In this document: piece by piece, positions 4,899 to 13,495 of the stretch | Layout of the letters: every line of letters starts with the position of its first letter | Numbering within the stretch: position 1 is the stretch's first letter | Source of the DNA: a virus | Length of the DNA: 56,768 bases | IMG/VR virus record: IMGVR_UViG_3300025030_000126 | Location: 1-56,768 of that record | Reading direction: 5' to 3' (one strand) | Position numbers and translations under genes: made by a program | Notes under the pieces: generated by a model | The model's database searches: none | The model's input: only the letters and a program-made list of their open reading frames with translations | Told to the model about the DNA's origin: nothing

Positions 4899-5072
4899 TT
4901 GAGTTACGGAGCACCCGAAAGCGTGGCCGTGGCAATGCCATGGAAAACCGAAACAGTGTGGTGCCCGTTCTGCGCGTCAGTATGGGTAACAGTCTTCATT
5001 CACGGTTCAAAGCTGCTTGAGTGTCCTGGCTGTCATAGGGATGTGACAGTAAGACTCGTTGGCAGGGCTTAA
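4899..5072 (+). CDS. Tiny zinc-ribbon protein with TTG start
   Basis: A 57-residue protein. The TTG start is supported by GGGAGG ending six bases upstream. The reading frame is convincing: Cys22-Pro-Phe-Cys25 and Cys42-Pro-Gly-Cys45 form a classic zinc ribbon with a beta hairpin between. It resembles small phage zinc-finger proteins of unknown role. It ends the upstream run of small genes; a possible promoter follows. Confidence 0.65.
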   Translation: MSYGAPESVAVAMPWKTETVWCPFCASVWVTVFIHGSKLLECPGCHRDVTVRLVGRA

Positions 5073-5730: not shown

Positions 5731-6038
5731 CCATTTCCCGCCTCTCCCCCTACAACATCCCCGATGACCTTGTTCGTTCCGACCTGTACCGGGAAATCCG
5801 CATCGGCCAGACGGCGGATAACGACTGGTTCCTGCACGAGATACAGCCCGACGAAATACTGATGCCGGAGTTGATAGCATACCGCCGCTACCAGACGGTA
5901 GAGACAAAGTGGATCATCCTCGTGGCCGCAGGACTGGACGACATGCGCGAGGCCATGGAGTCCGGCAGCACGATAAAGCTCCCCCCGGTCGTCTGGATCA
6001 GGGAGAGGATCAAGTTCTATGCCGGGGAGACCGAGTAG
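5727..6038 (+). CDS. Baseplate wedge protein, gp53-like (tentative)
   Basis: A 103-residue protein. The second half follows the gp53/LysM-like baseplate pattern in which a short Tyr/Trp-rich helix precedes an AGLDD segment and a SGSTIKLPPVVWI strand. In T4, gp53 is a wedge component of the baseplate. The small size fits only the core of that family. Overlap with the peptidase gene and proximity to structural genes support a tail role. The assignment rests on pattern, not on alignment. Confidence 0.5.
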   Translation: MTISRLSPYNIPDDLVRSDLYREIRIGQTADNDWFLHEIQPDEILMPELIAYRRYQTVETKWIILVAAGLDDMREAMESGSTIKLPPVVWIRERIKFYAGETE

Positions 6039-7232
6039 ATGCCCGTAAAGCAGATTACCCGGATGGCAGAAGATGACAAGCAGCTTCGCTTGTTCGAACG
6101 GCGATGGAAGGCCGCGAACAGCCGCACCGTCAAATCCCGCGAAACGGAACCCGTCCAGAAGTTCCTCACCGAAGAACTTCTCCGGGACCGCAAATCCCTC
6201 ACCAAGAACGGCAGGCAGAACCTTGTGCTTCAGTACGGCTCTTCCGGCCAAGTGGAGTACACCCTTGCCGAGCTGAACGCCATGGCGAAGAAACTCTTCG
6301 CCGCTGAAGACAAGTTCGGCACCAACGTCCGGGGTGTGAAAGTCGGCGACTTGTTGAGGTCTTCTCTGACAATCGACAAGGCGCGGTCAAAGAAGATCAG
6401 GAGCGCAGCCCTTTACAAGGTGGCAGGCAACACCCTGTTCTTCCAGACGGCATCCAGCGGTGAAACGCCAGGGGCACCCTCTCATTACGTTGTCAGGATT
6501 CGCCTCGAAGACTGGGGCACCGCGATCAGGCGAGGGGAGGGGAAGAACTACTACCCTGCGGCGATCAAGGCCGCCATGGGGAACATCTCCTTCGACTGCT
6601 CGTGTGGGCGGCATCAATACTGGTACCGCTACCTCGCCACTATCGGCGGGTTCAACCTGATGCCTGAAGAGCTGGTATTCCCGAAAATCCGCAACCCGAA
6701 GCTCAAAGGGGCATGCTGCAAGCATACCCTGAAGACCATCATGACCATGCAGGGTCCTGTCATGTTGACCCGCATTGCGGCAGAGATGGAGAAACAGGCG
6801 CAGAAGACCAACTTCGAAGAGGGCCGGGGCAAGTTCGTCAAGGCCGATGAGGCCGAAAAGCTCCGGGCTCAGTCGGAAAAGATGAAGATGACCTCCGCGT
6901 TCAAGGCTTTCAAGAAGGCGCAAGCTGCTTTCGAGGAAAAGCAGAACAGCGCGGCAGCCAAGAAGGCTATAGCGGGGCTACGGGAAAGGAACGATGCCGC
7001 GATGAGACAGATCATCCAAGAGAAGCAGGCCGCCGAGGCCATAGCGAAGAAGGAAATACAAAAGAATAGGCAGTTGCAAGCGGATATTGTCAAAAGCAAA
7101 TTGGCGACAGCATTCAACGTGGGTGTGCGGTTCAAAGTTTCTAAGGAAGATATCATCAAAGGGTTTGCTGAGGATGAAAAACTTTCTGTCGAGGACGTAA
7201 CCGAGATAGCCAAAGAGGGTCGCTTGATATGA
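6039..7232 (+). CDS. SWIM-like zinc-finger protein
   Basis: A 397-residue protein with a CxC...CxH SWIM-type motif: Cys187-Ser-Cys189 and Cys227-Lys-His229. These are separated by an aromatic segment (YWYRYLATIGG). Residues about 245-350 form a long Lys/Glu/Ala-rich coiled coil. SWIM fingers bind DNA or proteins, so a virion DNA-associated or head-tail role is possible, but no specific homologue is named. The last codons overlap the tnpB start (ATGA). The final segment may have been reshaped by the insertion of tnpB, since TTGAT, a known IS605-type target, lies at 7224-7228. Confidence 0.65.
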   Translation: MPVKQITRMAEDDKQLRLFERRWKAANSRTVKSRETEPVQKFLTEELLRDRKSLTKNGRQNLVLQYGSSGQVEYTLAELNAMAKKLFAAEDKFGTNVRGVKVGDLLRSSLTIDKARSKKIRSAALYKVAGNTLFFQTASSGETPGAPSHYVVRIRLEDWGTAIRRGEGKNYYPAAIKAAMGNISFDCSCGRHQYWYRYLATIGGFNLMPEELVFPKIRNPKLKGACCKHTLKTIMTMQGPVMLTRIAAEMEKQAQKTNFEEGRGKFVKADEAEKLRAQSEKMKMTSAFKAFKKAQAAFEEKQNSAAAKKAIAGLRERNDAAMRQIIQEKQAAEAIAKKEIQKNRQLQADIVKSKLATAFNVGVRFKVSKEDIIKGFAEDEKLSVEDVTEIAKEGRLI

Positions 7233-8275
7233 TATACCGGCATTTAAAGCTTAAATTGACGAAAGTACAAGAAGAGTCTGTCCATAGGTGGATTCCTAGC
7301 CTGACCTCAATATGGAATTGGGCAATTTGTAAAATAGAGAATGATTCGAAAGGGGGCATCTACTACTCGCAGAAAGAGTTCCAAAACATATTATGCGGGA
7401 CCAGTAAAGTCCTCAATATACCGAGCCACACAGTTCAAGGCGTGTTAATTTCTGCCCACATGGCATGGCAGATGTGTTATAAGAAGGCGGCTAAAAAACC
7501 AAGATTCAAGGGCAACCGCAACCGTCTCAACAGTATCCCGTTCCCCGACCCGTTCCGAGTACCAAAGGATAACAGAATCACGGTCCCAGGTTTGGGCAGG
7601 GTTCGTTACCACAAGCAAGATATCCCAGAGGGCAAGATCAAATGCGGCAGGGTCGTCAAGCGGGCCTCCGGCTGGTACCTTTGCCTATTCATTGATGCTG
7701 AACCTGCAAAAATATCTGGAACAGGCGAGGGGGCCGTTGGCATCGACCCCGGCTATAAGCACCTGCTCACCCTCTCAACTGGGGAGAAAGTCGCCCATCC
7801 GAAAGAGTTGCAGCACAGCATCAAGCGTATTGGACAAGCCCAGCGTGGTGGTAATAAACGACTTGTAGCCAGACTTAACGAACGTATTGCTAACCAACGG
7901 AAGGACCGAAACCATAAACTATCCCATCGTTTAGTTGCAGAGAATGCAGTTATTGCTTTCAGTAAAGACAACATCAAGGGTCTGTCTCGTGCAGGCTTTG
8001 GGAAGTCCGTGGCAGCAGCAGGTCATGGGCAGTTCCGATTAATGTTGGCGTACAAGAGCCGTGCAGGCGGTCGTCAATACATCGAAGTTCCCAGTAAAGG
8101 TTCCACTAGGACCTGTTCAACTTGCGGTGCCAGTACCGGGCCTCAAGGGCGAGCAGGACTATCGGTAAGGCAATGGACGTGTTCGGCGTGTGGGACGCCT
8201 CATGATCGCGACGTGAACGCCGCGATCAACACGCTCAATGCTGCGCTCGGAATGAGCGTCGAGAGGGCCATTTAA
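7229..8275 (+). CDS. tnpB: TnpB-family protein with substituted RuvC-II residue
   Basis: A 348-residue IS200/IS605 TnpB (OrfB) protein, an RNA-guided RuvC nuclease family ancestral to Cas12. RuvC-I is intact (GIDPG, Asp173). The zinc ribbon has Cys296/299 and Cys318/321. RuvC-III (HDRDVNAA, Asp328) is intact. At the RuvC-II position, where active TnpB has I-x-x-E-D-L-N, this protein reads IAFSKDNIKGL, so the catalytic Glu is Ser245. It may be nuclease-dead, as in TnpB-like repressors (TldR), unless a relocated acidic residue substitutes. No tnpA is present. The ATG directly follows TTGAT and overlaps the upstream stop. Confidence 0.9.
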   Translation: MIYRHLKLKLTKVQEESVHRWIPSLTSIWNWAICKIENDSKGGIYYSQKEFQNILCGTSKVLNIPSHTVQGVLISAHMAWQMCYKKAAKKPRFKGNRNRLNSIPFPDPFRVPKDNRITVPGLGRVRYHKQDIPEGKIKCGRVVKRASGWYLCLFIDAEPAKISGTGEGAVGIDPGYKHLLTLSTGEKVAHPKELQHSIKRIGQAQRGGNKRLVARLNERIANQRKDRNHKLSHRLVAENAVIAFSKDNIKGLSRAGFGKSVAAAGHGQFRLMLAYKSRAGGRQYIEVPSKGSTRTCSTCGASTGPQGRAGLSVRQWTCSACGTPHDRDVNAAINTLNAALGMSVERAI

Positions 8276-8359
8276 GGCCCGTCTGAAACCTCAGATTGTC
8301 GAGAGAGTTCAAAAAGCAGTGGTCCGGGACCGCATACATCCTTCGACAGGGAAGCAAAT
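8276..8359 (+). ncRNA. Possible omega-RNA 3' portion and guide after tnpB
   Basis: The 84 bases after tnpB contain three inverted repeats: GGGCC/GGCCC around the tnpB stop, TCTGA-AACC-TCAGA (8282-8295), and GGTCC-G-GGACC (8320-8330). TnpB guide RNAs normally overlap the 3' end of tnpB and run past the element end. If the scaffold ends near GAGAGAGTTCAA (8301-8312), the guide would begin about 8313. This is inference from family architecture. Confidence 0.4.
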
Positions 8360-8581
8360 ATGGCTTGCGACATGACGATAAAAATCGAGCACATCCAGAC
8401 TTCTAGATCCAGCTTGGACTTCCAAGAGTTCGCACGTTACGTAGAGCGCACTGTGATGGCAACGTTATCGTCTGCGCCCAAAACGGACGGGCAGGAGGTG
8501 TACGGCGTGTCCCCTTTTTCGCAAATCCCCCGTGACATGCTGCCCCTTATGTTGCCCGCGCAGGCAAGGAGACCTCGATGA
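8360..8581 (+). CDS. Small hypothetical structural-region protein
   Basis: A 73-residue protein beginning 84 bases after tnpB, with a modest GGGAAG ribosome site. It ends in an ATGA overlap with the next gene. No motif recognised. Its position in a run of virion genes suggests a structural or assembly role. Confidence 0.6.
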   Translation: MACDMTIKIEHIQTSRSSLDFQEFARYVERTVMATLSSAPKTDGQEVYGVSPFSQIPRDMLPLMLPAQARRPR

Positions 8582-10151: not shown

Positions 10152-13100
10152 ATGAACAAGGTATATTTCTGGCTGGCACTGTTACTGATACCCACGGCGC
10201 TGATTGCTGCCGACATCTCGCACACTCCGCTCGTGCCGGGGGCGCTGCTGTCTACCGACCGAGTGCCGATGGGGCGACCTTCGAGCGGGCTGGCCGACGG
10301 GAAGGGCGCGGCCTACACTGCCAGTATGAACCAGATCAGGCAGTACGTCCAAGGGCAACTGTCATCCGCTCAAGGCGGGGTAGCCGCTACTGTCGATGTT
10401 GGAACTACTACCACCGGGGCCGCAGGCACCAGTGCGAGCGTCACAAATTCAGGCACCGACAAGGCCGCTATCCTCAACTTCACCGTGCCACGCGGAAACA
10501 CTGGTGCTGCGGGGACTACGGGGGCTGCTGCGACCATCGCGGTTGGCACAGTGACCACGGGCGCAGCCGGTTCCGAGGTAACAGTCACCAACGTCGGCAC
10601 ACCGACCGCCGCTGTATTCGATGTGCGTATCCCCAAAGGGGACAAGGGGGACACCGGGAATACCGGCGCGACAGGGGCACAAGGCGAAGCGGGGGTTCAA
10701 GGTATTCAGGGGATTCCCGGCGATCAGGGGCTGGAAGGACCTGCGGGCGCAGGTTCTGAAGTTCCGGGGCCGCCAGGGGCTCCCGGCGATCCGGGCCTGT
10801 CGGCGTATCAGGTGGCCGTTGCAAACGGGTTTGTTGGGGATGAAGCGGCATGGCTTGCCTCGCTCCAAGGTGAGACAGGACCTCCGGGTAGCGGCGGCTC
10901 TGGTGCGTTTGCCGACATCACGGGCGCACCGGGGGATAACTCTGCGCTGGCTGCCGCGCTCGGAGCGAAGGTTGACACCTCGTCTTTGGCAGCCGTGGCG
11001 ACAACCGGCGCGTATTCCGATCTCACAGGCAAGCCGACCCTCGGCAACTCCGCCGCTCTCGATGTCGGCACCACCGCCGGCACGGTGGCCGCGGGTGATG
11101 ATGCCAGGATAGTTGCGGGAGGGACGGCGTTGCAGTCGGATGGGGATGGGAGCGGCTTGACGGGTATCACCCCTGGGCAGGTCGGGGCAGCTACCGCAGC
11201 GCAGGGCGCTTTGGCGGATAGCGCGTTGCAGACCATCACCGACTCTACCAGCACGACAAGTAGCGCGACGGCGGCGAGCGCGACGGCGGTGAAGTCTTTA
11301 CAGGACTCTAAGGCATCGCTCACCGCCCCGTCCTTTACTACCAGCATTCAGACCCCAGCTATAGGGATCAACCACGCTCCGGTCACAACTGGGCCTTTGC
11401 TCTATCTCTACTCCCCACAGAAAACCCAAGGTTTCTACCAGTATCACTATCAGAATAGCGACCCCGGTATAGCAGACGGCGGCACATTCTCCCCATTCCA
11501 TGTTGAAGTGGCCACCACGGCCACGCAGGAAACACCCAATACGCTACTGAGCGGGGGGCTTACCTCCACGCTCAATTTCGGCCAAGGGGGCGCGGCATCT
11601 GTCGGGACCGGCCACGCCGCCAGCCTGTCGACGGTGATTTACGGCAACGGCGACGCCGCCAGCGAGCACGCCGGGATATTCAGTGCGCTGCGCTACGACA
11701 TTGGGACGGGCTTTGCTCAGACGGCGGGGCCTTCGGGACGCGGCTGGCTCACGGATTTCAACCTGCACGGGCCTGTCAACGTCCAGCCGAATCTCCTGAC
11801 GGGCATCAATATGTTTGCCAACAACTACTACAATGGCTCCCCGGTGTCCGGGCCGTCCGGCGCGATCTGGATCAGTACTGGAAAAGGGCTGGGCGGAGGC
11901 ACGGGCGGCGGTCCGCACACATCCGCTAACACCTACCCGCTAGATGTGGGACTCGGCATCGTTGGCACTTCCTATGCCGGGAGTACCGCAAACGGATTTA
12001 ACAAGGGCATCCAGATCGGGGGCACGGGCTCAGGGTGGGAGGTTCCGTCATCCAAAATAGGCACAGGTATATCTTTGGAGGGGACGCAGGGTGTTGGGGC
12101 CGATTTCTCCGTGGCGACTTTTAGCAACAACTCCACCGCCATCAAACTAGGTCCGACTCAGAAAATATCTGACGGTACCAACGCGTACACACTGGCGGAA
12201 CTTGCCGCAGGGGGCGGTGGAGGGGAGGCGAACACCACATCCAACGTAGGTACCGGCGAGGGCACTCTGGCGAAAGCTAAATCCGGCGTTGACCTCCCGT
12301 TTAAAACCATCAAAGCAGGTAGCAATATCACTATCACCAACAACGCTGATGATGTGACCGTTGAGGCAACGGGCGGTGGGGCGGGTACTGTCATAAGCGT
12401 GTCTTCAGCAAACGCCGATATTGCTGTATCAATGGCATCGCCAACGCCGGTTCTTACTCTTAATAGTGGTACCAGTGCTAACCAGATAGTCAAACGTGGC
12501 GCTAACGGAGCCGTTACGTTTGCGAACAGCGCGAACGATGGGACATCTACAATATCTCCATCCCGAACTATGACAGGGGGAACCGGCGCGGGAACCTCAT
12601 ACAGATCGCTAAACTCGACATTCGGGTTAACAACTACGGATTCTGCCGATAGTGGTTACCTCAGCGCGGGTGGCTTCACAACTACGTACAACGGTTCAGG
12701 TACGTCTGCTTTCACCGGCGAGCTGCGCTCGTTAGTTGTATCGGGCTATAACCAAGGTTCGGCGACTGCGTCAAATGTAACAGGTGTGCTATCAGCGGGT
12801 GGTGCTACAAGCACTGGTGGTATCGCTACGTACACCGGATTTAAATCAGCGCCTTATTCGCCAGGGGCGGGGGTCATAACTACAGCGATAGGCTTTCTGA
12901 GTGACTCCACTACCTATTCCAACGCTACAAATAAGTGGCATTTCTACGGGAACGGAGATGCCCGATCCTACCTTAACGGCAACCTCCAGATCGGCAGCGC
13001 CACGGCCACCACAGGCGCAGAAAAGCTCCAGGTGACGGGTAGCGCATCCATCTCGGGCAACCTCCTTGCCAAGACCTTTACCCCAACGCTCCCATCTGCG

Positions 13101-13409
13101 ACCACCTACGGAGCAACAACGACCATTGACCTTAGTTTGGGCGACTCACCCTCAGTCACCCTCACAGGAGACCCGGCGCTGGCGTTCAGCAATCCTGTAG
13201 CGGGGCAATGGCATACACTCAACCTGATTCAAGACGGGACAGGGGGCAGAACTGCCACATGGCCCTCGTCCGGCCTAGTCTGCACATGGCGGAATACATC
13301 AGGTAATGTGGCACCTACTTTACTGACAGGGGCGAACAAGGTCGACTCGTTCGTAATCCACACGCTATCGACAACCAGCGCCGAATGCTGGACTGCGAAT
13401 AACCAGTAA
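10152..13409 (+). CDS. Collagen-like tail fibre protein with signal peptide
   Basis: A 1085-residue fibre-type protein. Residues 1-20 look like a Sec signal peptide ending ALIAA, which is odd for a virion protein. Two roughly 45-residue beta modules (77-118, 127-167) precede a Gly-X-Y collagen-like stretch (about 162-216) and the AYQVAVANGFVGDEAAWLASL motif common in phage tail fibres. A long Gly/Ser/Thr-rich beta region follows, then a C-terminal beta domain (about 985-1085), probably for trimerisation or receptor binding. The family usually mediates host attachment. It is followed by a 7-bp inverted repeat. Confidence 0.85.
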   Translation: MNKVYFWLALLLIPTALIAADISHTPLVPGALLSTDRVPMGRPSSGLADGKGAAYTASMNQIRQYVQGQLSSAQGGVAATVDVGTTTTGAAGTSASVTNSGTDKAAILNFTVPRGNTGAAGTTGAAATIAVGTVTTGAAGSEVTVTNVGTPTAAVFDVRIPKGDKGDTGNTGATGAQGEAGVQGIQGIPGDQGLEGPAGAGSEVPGPPGAPGDPGLSAYQVAVANGFVGDEAAWLASLQGETGPPGSGGSGAFADITGAPGDNSALAAALGAKVDTSSLAAVATTGAYSDLTGKPTLGNSAALDVGTTAGTVAAGDDARIVAGGTALQSDGDGSGLTGITPGQVGAATAAQGALADSALQTITDSTSTTSSATAASATAVKSLQDSKASLTAPSFTTSIQTPAIGINHAPVTTGPLLYLYSPQKTQGFYQYHYQNSDPGIADGGTFSPFHVEVATTATQETPNTLLSGGLTSTLNFGQGGAASVGTGHAASLSTVIYGNGDAASEHAGIFSALRYDIGTGFAQTAGPSGRGWLTDFNLHGPVNVQPNLLTGINMFANNYYNGSPVSGPSGAIWISTGKGLGGGTGGGPHTSANTYPLDVGLGIVGTSYAGSTANGFNKGIQIGGTGSGWEVPSSKIGTGISLEGTQGVGADFSVATFSNNSTAIKLGPTQKISDGTNAYTLAELAAGGGGGEANTTSNVGTGEGTLAKAKSGVDLPFKTIKAGSNITITNNADDVTVEATGGGAGTVISVSSANADIAVSMASPTPVLTLNSGTSANQIVKRGANGAVTFANSANDGTSTISPSRTMTGGTGAGTSYRSLNSTFGLTTTDSADSGYLSAGGFTTTYNGSGTSAFTGELRSLVVSGYNQGSATASNVTGVLSAGGATSTGGIATYTGFKSAPYSPGAGVITTAIGFLSDSTTYSNATNKWHFYGNGDARSYLNGNLQIGSATATTGAEKLQVTGSASISGNLLAKTFTPTLPSATTYGATTTIDLSLGDSPSVTLTGDPALAFSNPVAGQWHTLNLIQDGTGGRTATWPSSGLVCTWRNTSGNVAPTLLTGANKVDSFVIHTLSTTSAECWTANNQ

Positions 13410-13416
13410 TCATTAC

Positions 13417-13465
13417 CTGCGGCTAGGCTGATCCCCGAAAAGGCGCACCCTACGCCCTGCCGCAG
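13417..13465 (+). repeat. Inverted repeat after fibre gene
   Basis: CTGCGGC (13417-13423) and GCCGCAG (13459-13465) are perfect complements with a 35-base loop and no T tract. This could be an RNA processing or folding element rather than a terminator. Confidence 0.35.
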
Positions 13466-13495
13466 ATTCTATAGGGCAATCCTGTGGGAGGATTT

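Follow-up and report, generated by a model that had tools for sequence, protein, structure and literature searches.

The 56,768-base virus contig analyzed here (IMG/VR record IMGVR_UViG_3300025030_000126, hereafter the window) carries a tnpB gene whose product we interpret, with modest confidence, as an active RNA-guided nuclease that would use a relocated catalytic acid and act in homing on, or exclusion of, the tail-gene allele of a rival phage. The gene occupies positions 7229–8275 and lies on the + strand, like the features of this locus given below from 6039 to 8577. More tentatively, and with slightly less than even expectation, it may represent a phage-centred clade of TnpBs with a third arrangement of RuvC acids (Asp two residues beyond the canonical Glu position), parts of which would have ceased to transpose and become free-standing RNA-guided homing or exclusion nucleases; in the window, the guide would correspond to the tail allele of a rival, the carrier's own gene end having been replaced. 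The sequence evidence covers the protein family, the residue pattern, the guide-RNA scaffold, the match between guide and target, the target-adjacent motif (TAM) and the replaced target.

The open reading frame (ORF) at 7229–8275 encodes a 348-residue, tnpB-like protein with a full-length TnpB fold. The protein matches the Pfam families OrfB_IS605 and Cas12f1-like_TNB as well as the NCBIfam family guided_TnpB (203 bits; cut-off 100), and sequence searches of PHROGs and the PDB also place it in the TnpB superfamily, the PDB match being ISDra2 TnpB. An AlphaFold2 model built from 147 aligned sequences reached a mean predicted local distance difference test score (pLDDT) of 95.1 and a predicted template modelling score of 0.86 (an earlier AlphaFold run with 6 sequences gave a pLDDT of 56 and was discarded), and Foldseek returned ISFba1 and ISDra2 TnpB among the best matches to this model. 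By every feature tested the protein is a TnpB, and by its active site it is neither canonical nor of the type with an alternative Glu (Ealt).

With respect to this active site, the alignment is free of gaps from H229 to G251 and sets Ser245 (7961–7963) opposite the catalytic Glu of RuvC-II, so the assignment is not the product of an alignment slip. Residue counts were made over 59 aligned clade members, 86 canonical TnpBs and 79 Ealt TnpBs. At the canonical position the clade has Ser in 48 members, Thr in 7, Leu in 2 and Asn in 2, and Glu in 0/59. The alternative, Fanzor-type position, which precedes the first zinc Cys by 7 residues, is occupied by Ser289 in the window (8093–8095) and by Ser (53), Pro (4) or Asn (2) across the clade, with Glu again in 0/59. 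Canonical TnpBs have Glu at the canonical position (86/86) and Leu two residues later (86/86), and Ealt TnpBs combine Gly at the canonical position with Glu at the alternative one (79/79) and Val, Leu or Ala at +2 (79/79). All 59 clade members instead have Asp at +2, corresponding to Asp247 of the window (7967–7969), and the three acid patterns are mutually exclusive. The remainder of the site is conventional in composition: Asp173 of RuvC-I (7745–7747) lies in a GIDPG motif, the DPG of which is also found in most of the clade, and is kept in 57 of the 59 members (Gln in the loci L053 and L054); Asp328 of RuvC-III (8210–8212) is Asp in all 58 clade rows having that column; and the zinc-ribbon residues Cys296, Cys299, Cys318 and Cys321 (8114–8191) are invariant in the clade alignment (A2). 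The window protein carries every clade-invariant residue, and its ORF is intact. These results uphold much of what a first, sequence-only reading had proposed, namely a lone TnpB with Ser at the RuvC-II Glu, an otherwise complete set of Asp173, Asp328 and zinc ribbon, and no tnpA: the record contains one TnpB match and no second tnpB, a tnpA profile search of the window gave no match, and no left transposon end was found in it.

The simplest reading of the invariant D247 would be that of a relocated catalytic acid, an idea already raised by the sequence-only reading and now its best-supported part. In the AlphaFold2 model D247 lies just past the strand formed by residues 239–246, and strand alternation would place it on the same face as Ser245. 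Glu239, which had been put forward alongside Asp247, did not hold up, as residue 239 is Asn and the Glu is residue 238, in a column that is not conserved. Other acids were considered and rejected as well. The Fanzor-type Glu is absent from the window and the clade; E286 is present in 48/59 members, being otherwise Leu, Pro or Phe, and is common in Ealt TnpBs that have their own Glu; and E218, present in 58/59, is also Glu in 43/86 canonical TnpBs and hence not particular to the clade.

The clade itself was sampled by scanning a viral collection with a six-sequence alignment as query, which returned 64 loci. When the RuvC-II and Ealt columns are removed before tree building, the three TnpB groups separate with support of 100, 100 and 97, the window's clade receiving 100. 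The nearest group among those sampled is the Ealt clade, a sister relation that we regard as tentative given the narrow sampling of canonical TnpBs. A Y1-type tnpA stands directly upstream of tnpB in L006, L062 (the same contig as L005), L038, L010 and L016/L017, and such tnpA-bearing members are scattered across the clade tree. In many other members, a left-end hairpin is accompanied by a right-end hairpin that terminates in TCAA, and TGAAC precedes the left end in most of them; L009, the closest relative, keeps both ends. Because members with tnpA or transposon ends share the same residues, loss of the Glu is separate from phage domestication. Ratios of nonsynonymous to synonymous substitution (dN/dS) are 0.04–0.13 in clade pairs with estimable dS, among them L014/L021 and L050/L065, for which neither tnpA nor a left end was detected. 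These values indicate strong purifying selection on clade tnpB, including members in which neither tnpA nor a left end was detected; synonymous sites are saturated for the window–L009 and L039–L066 pairs.

A guide RNA is predicted at the 3′ end of the gene. The covariance model used for its detection (R1) was built from 22 relatives with the window left out and comprises two helices that show covariation, the first of which overlaps coding sequence; changes on both sides of the pairs were seen in 53 cells, compared with 20.9 in shuffles. On the window, R1 has a single match at E ≤ 5 (31.2 bits, E 4.7e-6), which defines a guide-RNA (reRNA or omegaRNA) scaffold at 8239–8312 that overlaps the 3′ end of tnpB and ends in TTCAA, and the model also matches the other searched members without a detected left end. 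The right end of the window, which terminates in TTCAA, is degenerate, and its hairpin is weaker than in the relatives. The guide, AAAGCAGTGGTCCGGGACC, follows at 8313–8331, in agreement with the start near 8313 that had been expected from sequence alone; the TTGAT-like TAM predicted at the same time gives way to TGAA(C), the TAM of the clade. No self-target of the guide was found in the window, where the best matches are chance-like.

The neighbors of tnpB are tail genes, which places it in the virion operon. The upstream tail gene (6039–7232; phrog_1722, resembling P1 gp25) shares 4 nucleotides (ATGA) with the start of tnpB. This stop–start overlap, to which the sequence-only reading had given weight, does exist, but it is ordinary, since an identical 4-nucleotide overlap joins tnpA and tnpB in L006, L038 and L062. 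Of greater consequence is the allele of this tail gene in L251, a phage contig without tnpB that has about 90–94% DNA identity to the window on either side of tnpB. The sequence shared by the two ends at 7058 and restarts at 8578. Identity in the tail gene is 93.8% over 6038–7058 and then drops steeply (113/206 alignment columns over window positions 7041–7232), which delimits a replaced C-terminal segment at 7059–7229 that lacks the target of the guide. In L251 the tail gene runs on, and at 5053 it contains TGAA and then AAAGCAGTGGTCAGGGACC, a sequence that agrees with the window guide at 18/19 positions (5053–5071), including a perfect seed formed by the first 12 nucleotides. By our own arithmetic, the chance of such a match in the 170-bp replaced stretch is about 4e-8.

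When a codon-relaxed pattern of the target was scanned against 2.9 million viral contigs, it occurred in one, namely the source contig of L251. The target site falls within coding sequence, in the allelic tail gene. By sequence match, the target is, as for a homing gene, the allele without the gene at the locus of insertion. The L251-type end of the tail gene recurs in L255 (61% amino acid identity) and looks ancestral; because of this recurrence the replacement is assigned to the window's side. The window is without a self-target because the part of its tail gene that would hold the target has been replaced, and a 21-nucleotide island (8311–8331) is retained between unrelated sequences, such that the guide is all that the window keeps of the old target. 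Among the fetched loci, no convincing targets were found for the guides of other members, and the generality of homing is unsupported there.

In its arrangement, the locus is apparently that of a homing cassette or a marker-exclusion nuclease. In the mechanism we propose, the third RuvC carboxylate would have shifted in the clade from the canonical Glu position to the Asp two residues on, and D247 would replace the Glu in metal binding. We infer that the RNA is expressed and forms a ribonucleoprotein with TnpB, in which the scaffold (8239–8312) and guide would steer the protein, in related phages free of tnpB, to the tail-gene site where AAAGCAGTGGTC follows TGAA. Cleavage there would fall between homologous arms, one ending at 7058 and the other restarting at 8578, and repair templated by the carrier genome would transfer 7059–8577, with the new end of the tail gene, tnpB, the scaffold and the guide, into the cut allele. 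The predicted outcome is homing, in which the rival allele is lost; the carrier would be spared, its own target having gone when its tail-gene end was replaced.

The main alternative, which we consider unlikely, is a nuclease-dead RNA-guided binder similar to Cas12m or to a TldR (TnpB-like nuclease-dead repressor), which would bind a co-infecting relative's tail gene and keep it from being transcribed, with no cut made. The absence of the catalytic Glu is in keeping with such a binder, as are the occurrence of TldRs in phages (PMC13418256), the binding and silencing of double-stranded DNA without cutting by Cas12m2 with its HDD site (PMC10442227), and the additional loss of D173 in the clade members L053 and L054. 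The TldR proposal of the sequence-only reading nonetheless fares poorly for the window protein: Ser245 is a clade-wide feature, and the same residues are found in tnpA-bearing elements, where the known role of TnpB is cutting; D173 and D328 are kept and D247 is clade-invariant; and the target lies inside a coding sequence rather than a promoter, with the corresponding segment of the carrier replaced, as protection from cutting requires. Since the guide is directed to the coding sequence of a rival and the carrier's own copy has been replaced, cleavage and homing fit better than promoter repression. Less probable again is a relic, in which the tail gene received an element of the IS200/IS605 type and was later mended by recombination, with tnpB and its scaffold now in decay. 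The missing left end and tnpA and a right-end hairpin weaker than in relatives would all suit decay, and the guide by definition corresponds to the former flank. An intact ORF with all clade-invariant residues and a statistically significant scaffold would not be expected of a relic, however, and neither would the retention of a guide-length island although both of its flanks were replaced; relatives lacking tnpA or a left end also appear to be under strong purifying selection, the direct window–L009 comparison being saturated at synonymous sites. We assign very little probability to a function in trans, or through the RNA alone, that has nothing to do with the tail allele; tnpB might, for example, use the guide to regulate a target in the host or its own RNA. 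Such a role would accommodate a guide with no target within the window, yet the syntenic 18/19 match with the correct TAM in L251 makes a second target unnecessary.

Several points weigh against our preferred interpretation of the window TnpB as an active homing or exclusion nuclease. There is a single known sister phage with an empty allele and a single guide–target pair, the window itself being a fragment. A simple earlier insertion at the site would also produce an 18/19 match. In addition, L053 and L054 lack D173 while belonging to the same clade, and we found no characterised precedent for the combination of Ser245 and D247, an earlier mention of the clade in the literature being possible.

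In terms of known systems, the window protein resembles canonical IS200/IS605 TnpBs such as those of ISDra2 and ISFba1 in its fold, zinc ribbon and RuvC-I and RuvC-III Asp residues, and in having a scaffold over the 3′ end of the gene, a guide drawn from the 3′ flank and a 5′ TAM. It differs from them in the Ser replacing the RuvC-II Glu, the Asp at +2 and the DPG motif, as well as in lacking tnpA and a left end and in residing within a virion operon. With Ealt TnpBs and Fanzor (PMC10711439) it shares the loss of the canonical Glu and, with Fanzor, the DPG motif, which at RuvC-I is also a mark of Ealt or pro-Fanzor TnpBs, and Ealt TnpBs are its nearest group in the tree; Ser289 in place of the alternative Glu and the invariant Asp247 set it apart. 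TldRs (PMC13418256) are similarly phage-borne, lone and RNA-guided with a substituted active site, whereas the window protein keeps two of the three acids along with a clade-invariant new one, shares its substitution with tnpA-bearing elements, and has as its target the coding sequence of a rival phage. Cas12m2 (PMC10442227), a compact TnpB descendant, likewise has a non-canonical RuvC triad, in which the first Asp is lost and an Asp occupies the Glu position; the window protein retains its first Asp and has the other Asp two residues further on, and no CRISPR array was identified.

A parallel of a different kind comes from the free-standing and intron homing endonucleases of phages (PMC2988022, PMC11620839). 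They likewise place a nuclease gene beside the targeted allele, with the carrier allele resistant, and would spread by repair; the window system differs in that its target is chosen by a guide RNA rather than by protein, and in having no intron. PMC11620839 describes an intron homing endonuclease that drives competition between co-infecting phages. TnpB has also been reported to act as a gene drive on plasmids (PMC11870625), where it similarly targets copies without the insertion; in that case the insertion sequence occupies its own site, whereas in the window the end of the neighboring gene is replaced and no left end is present.

Several further observations concern the clade and the surroundings of the locus. 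In L053 and L054 (4001–5110 in each), the RuvC-I Asp is lost (GIQLSV) and D247 and the RuvC-III Asp are kept; these proteins are possible true nuclease-dead TnpBs and may be better TldR candidates than the window protein. GCTCA repeats spaced by roughly 22 bases occur upstream of both genes, and a CRISPR-like array was considered and dropped as the periodicity is weak. L003 (5001–6069), on a 210-kb virus contig, is a clade tnpB among structural-looking genes whose scaffold runs into the beginning of the following gene; its guide would therefore fall in the coding sequence of that gene. The record of L004 (G003) holds two full clade TnpBs (104574–105617 and 91449–92489) and three more distant TnpB-like matches. 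The contigs of L026 and L028 are 99.6% identical over 7.1 kb except for about 25–35 bases directly after the scaffold (L026 5093–5128), which are entirely different, as if the guide had been swapped as a unit. In the window, the 246 bp between the guide and the next gene (8332–8577) are absent from L251, have no match in the fetched loci and contain a 73-residue ORF (8360–8581), itself without a match among these loci. Further downstream lies a 1085-residue ORF with collagen-like Gly-X-X repeats and tail-family matches (10152–13409), and just after this tail-fibre ORF there is a match to the Rfam int-alpA RNA family (13416–13477, 40.9 bits). Among GenBank phages, none was found to be closely related to the window at the DNA level.

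In the TnpB/Cas12 lineage, the acid of RuvC-II has been described at two positions. A third, if true, would alter the division of TnpBs into active and dead enzymes, and a simple check for the Glu would wrongly label this clade as dead. The clade is also easily overlooked: a public viral contig collection holds about 60 of its loci, and 50,697 GenBank phage records yielded none at E ≤ 1e-50. With a natural guide–target pair between sister phages, the use of an RNA-guided nuclease in phage competition can be tested directly.
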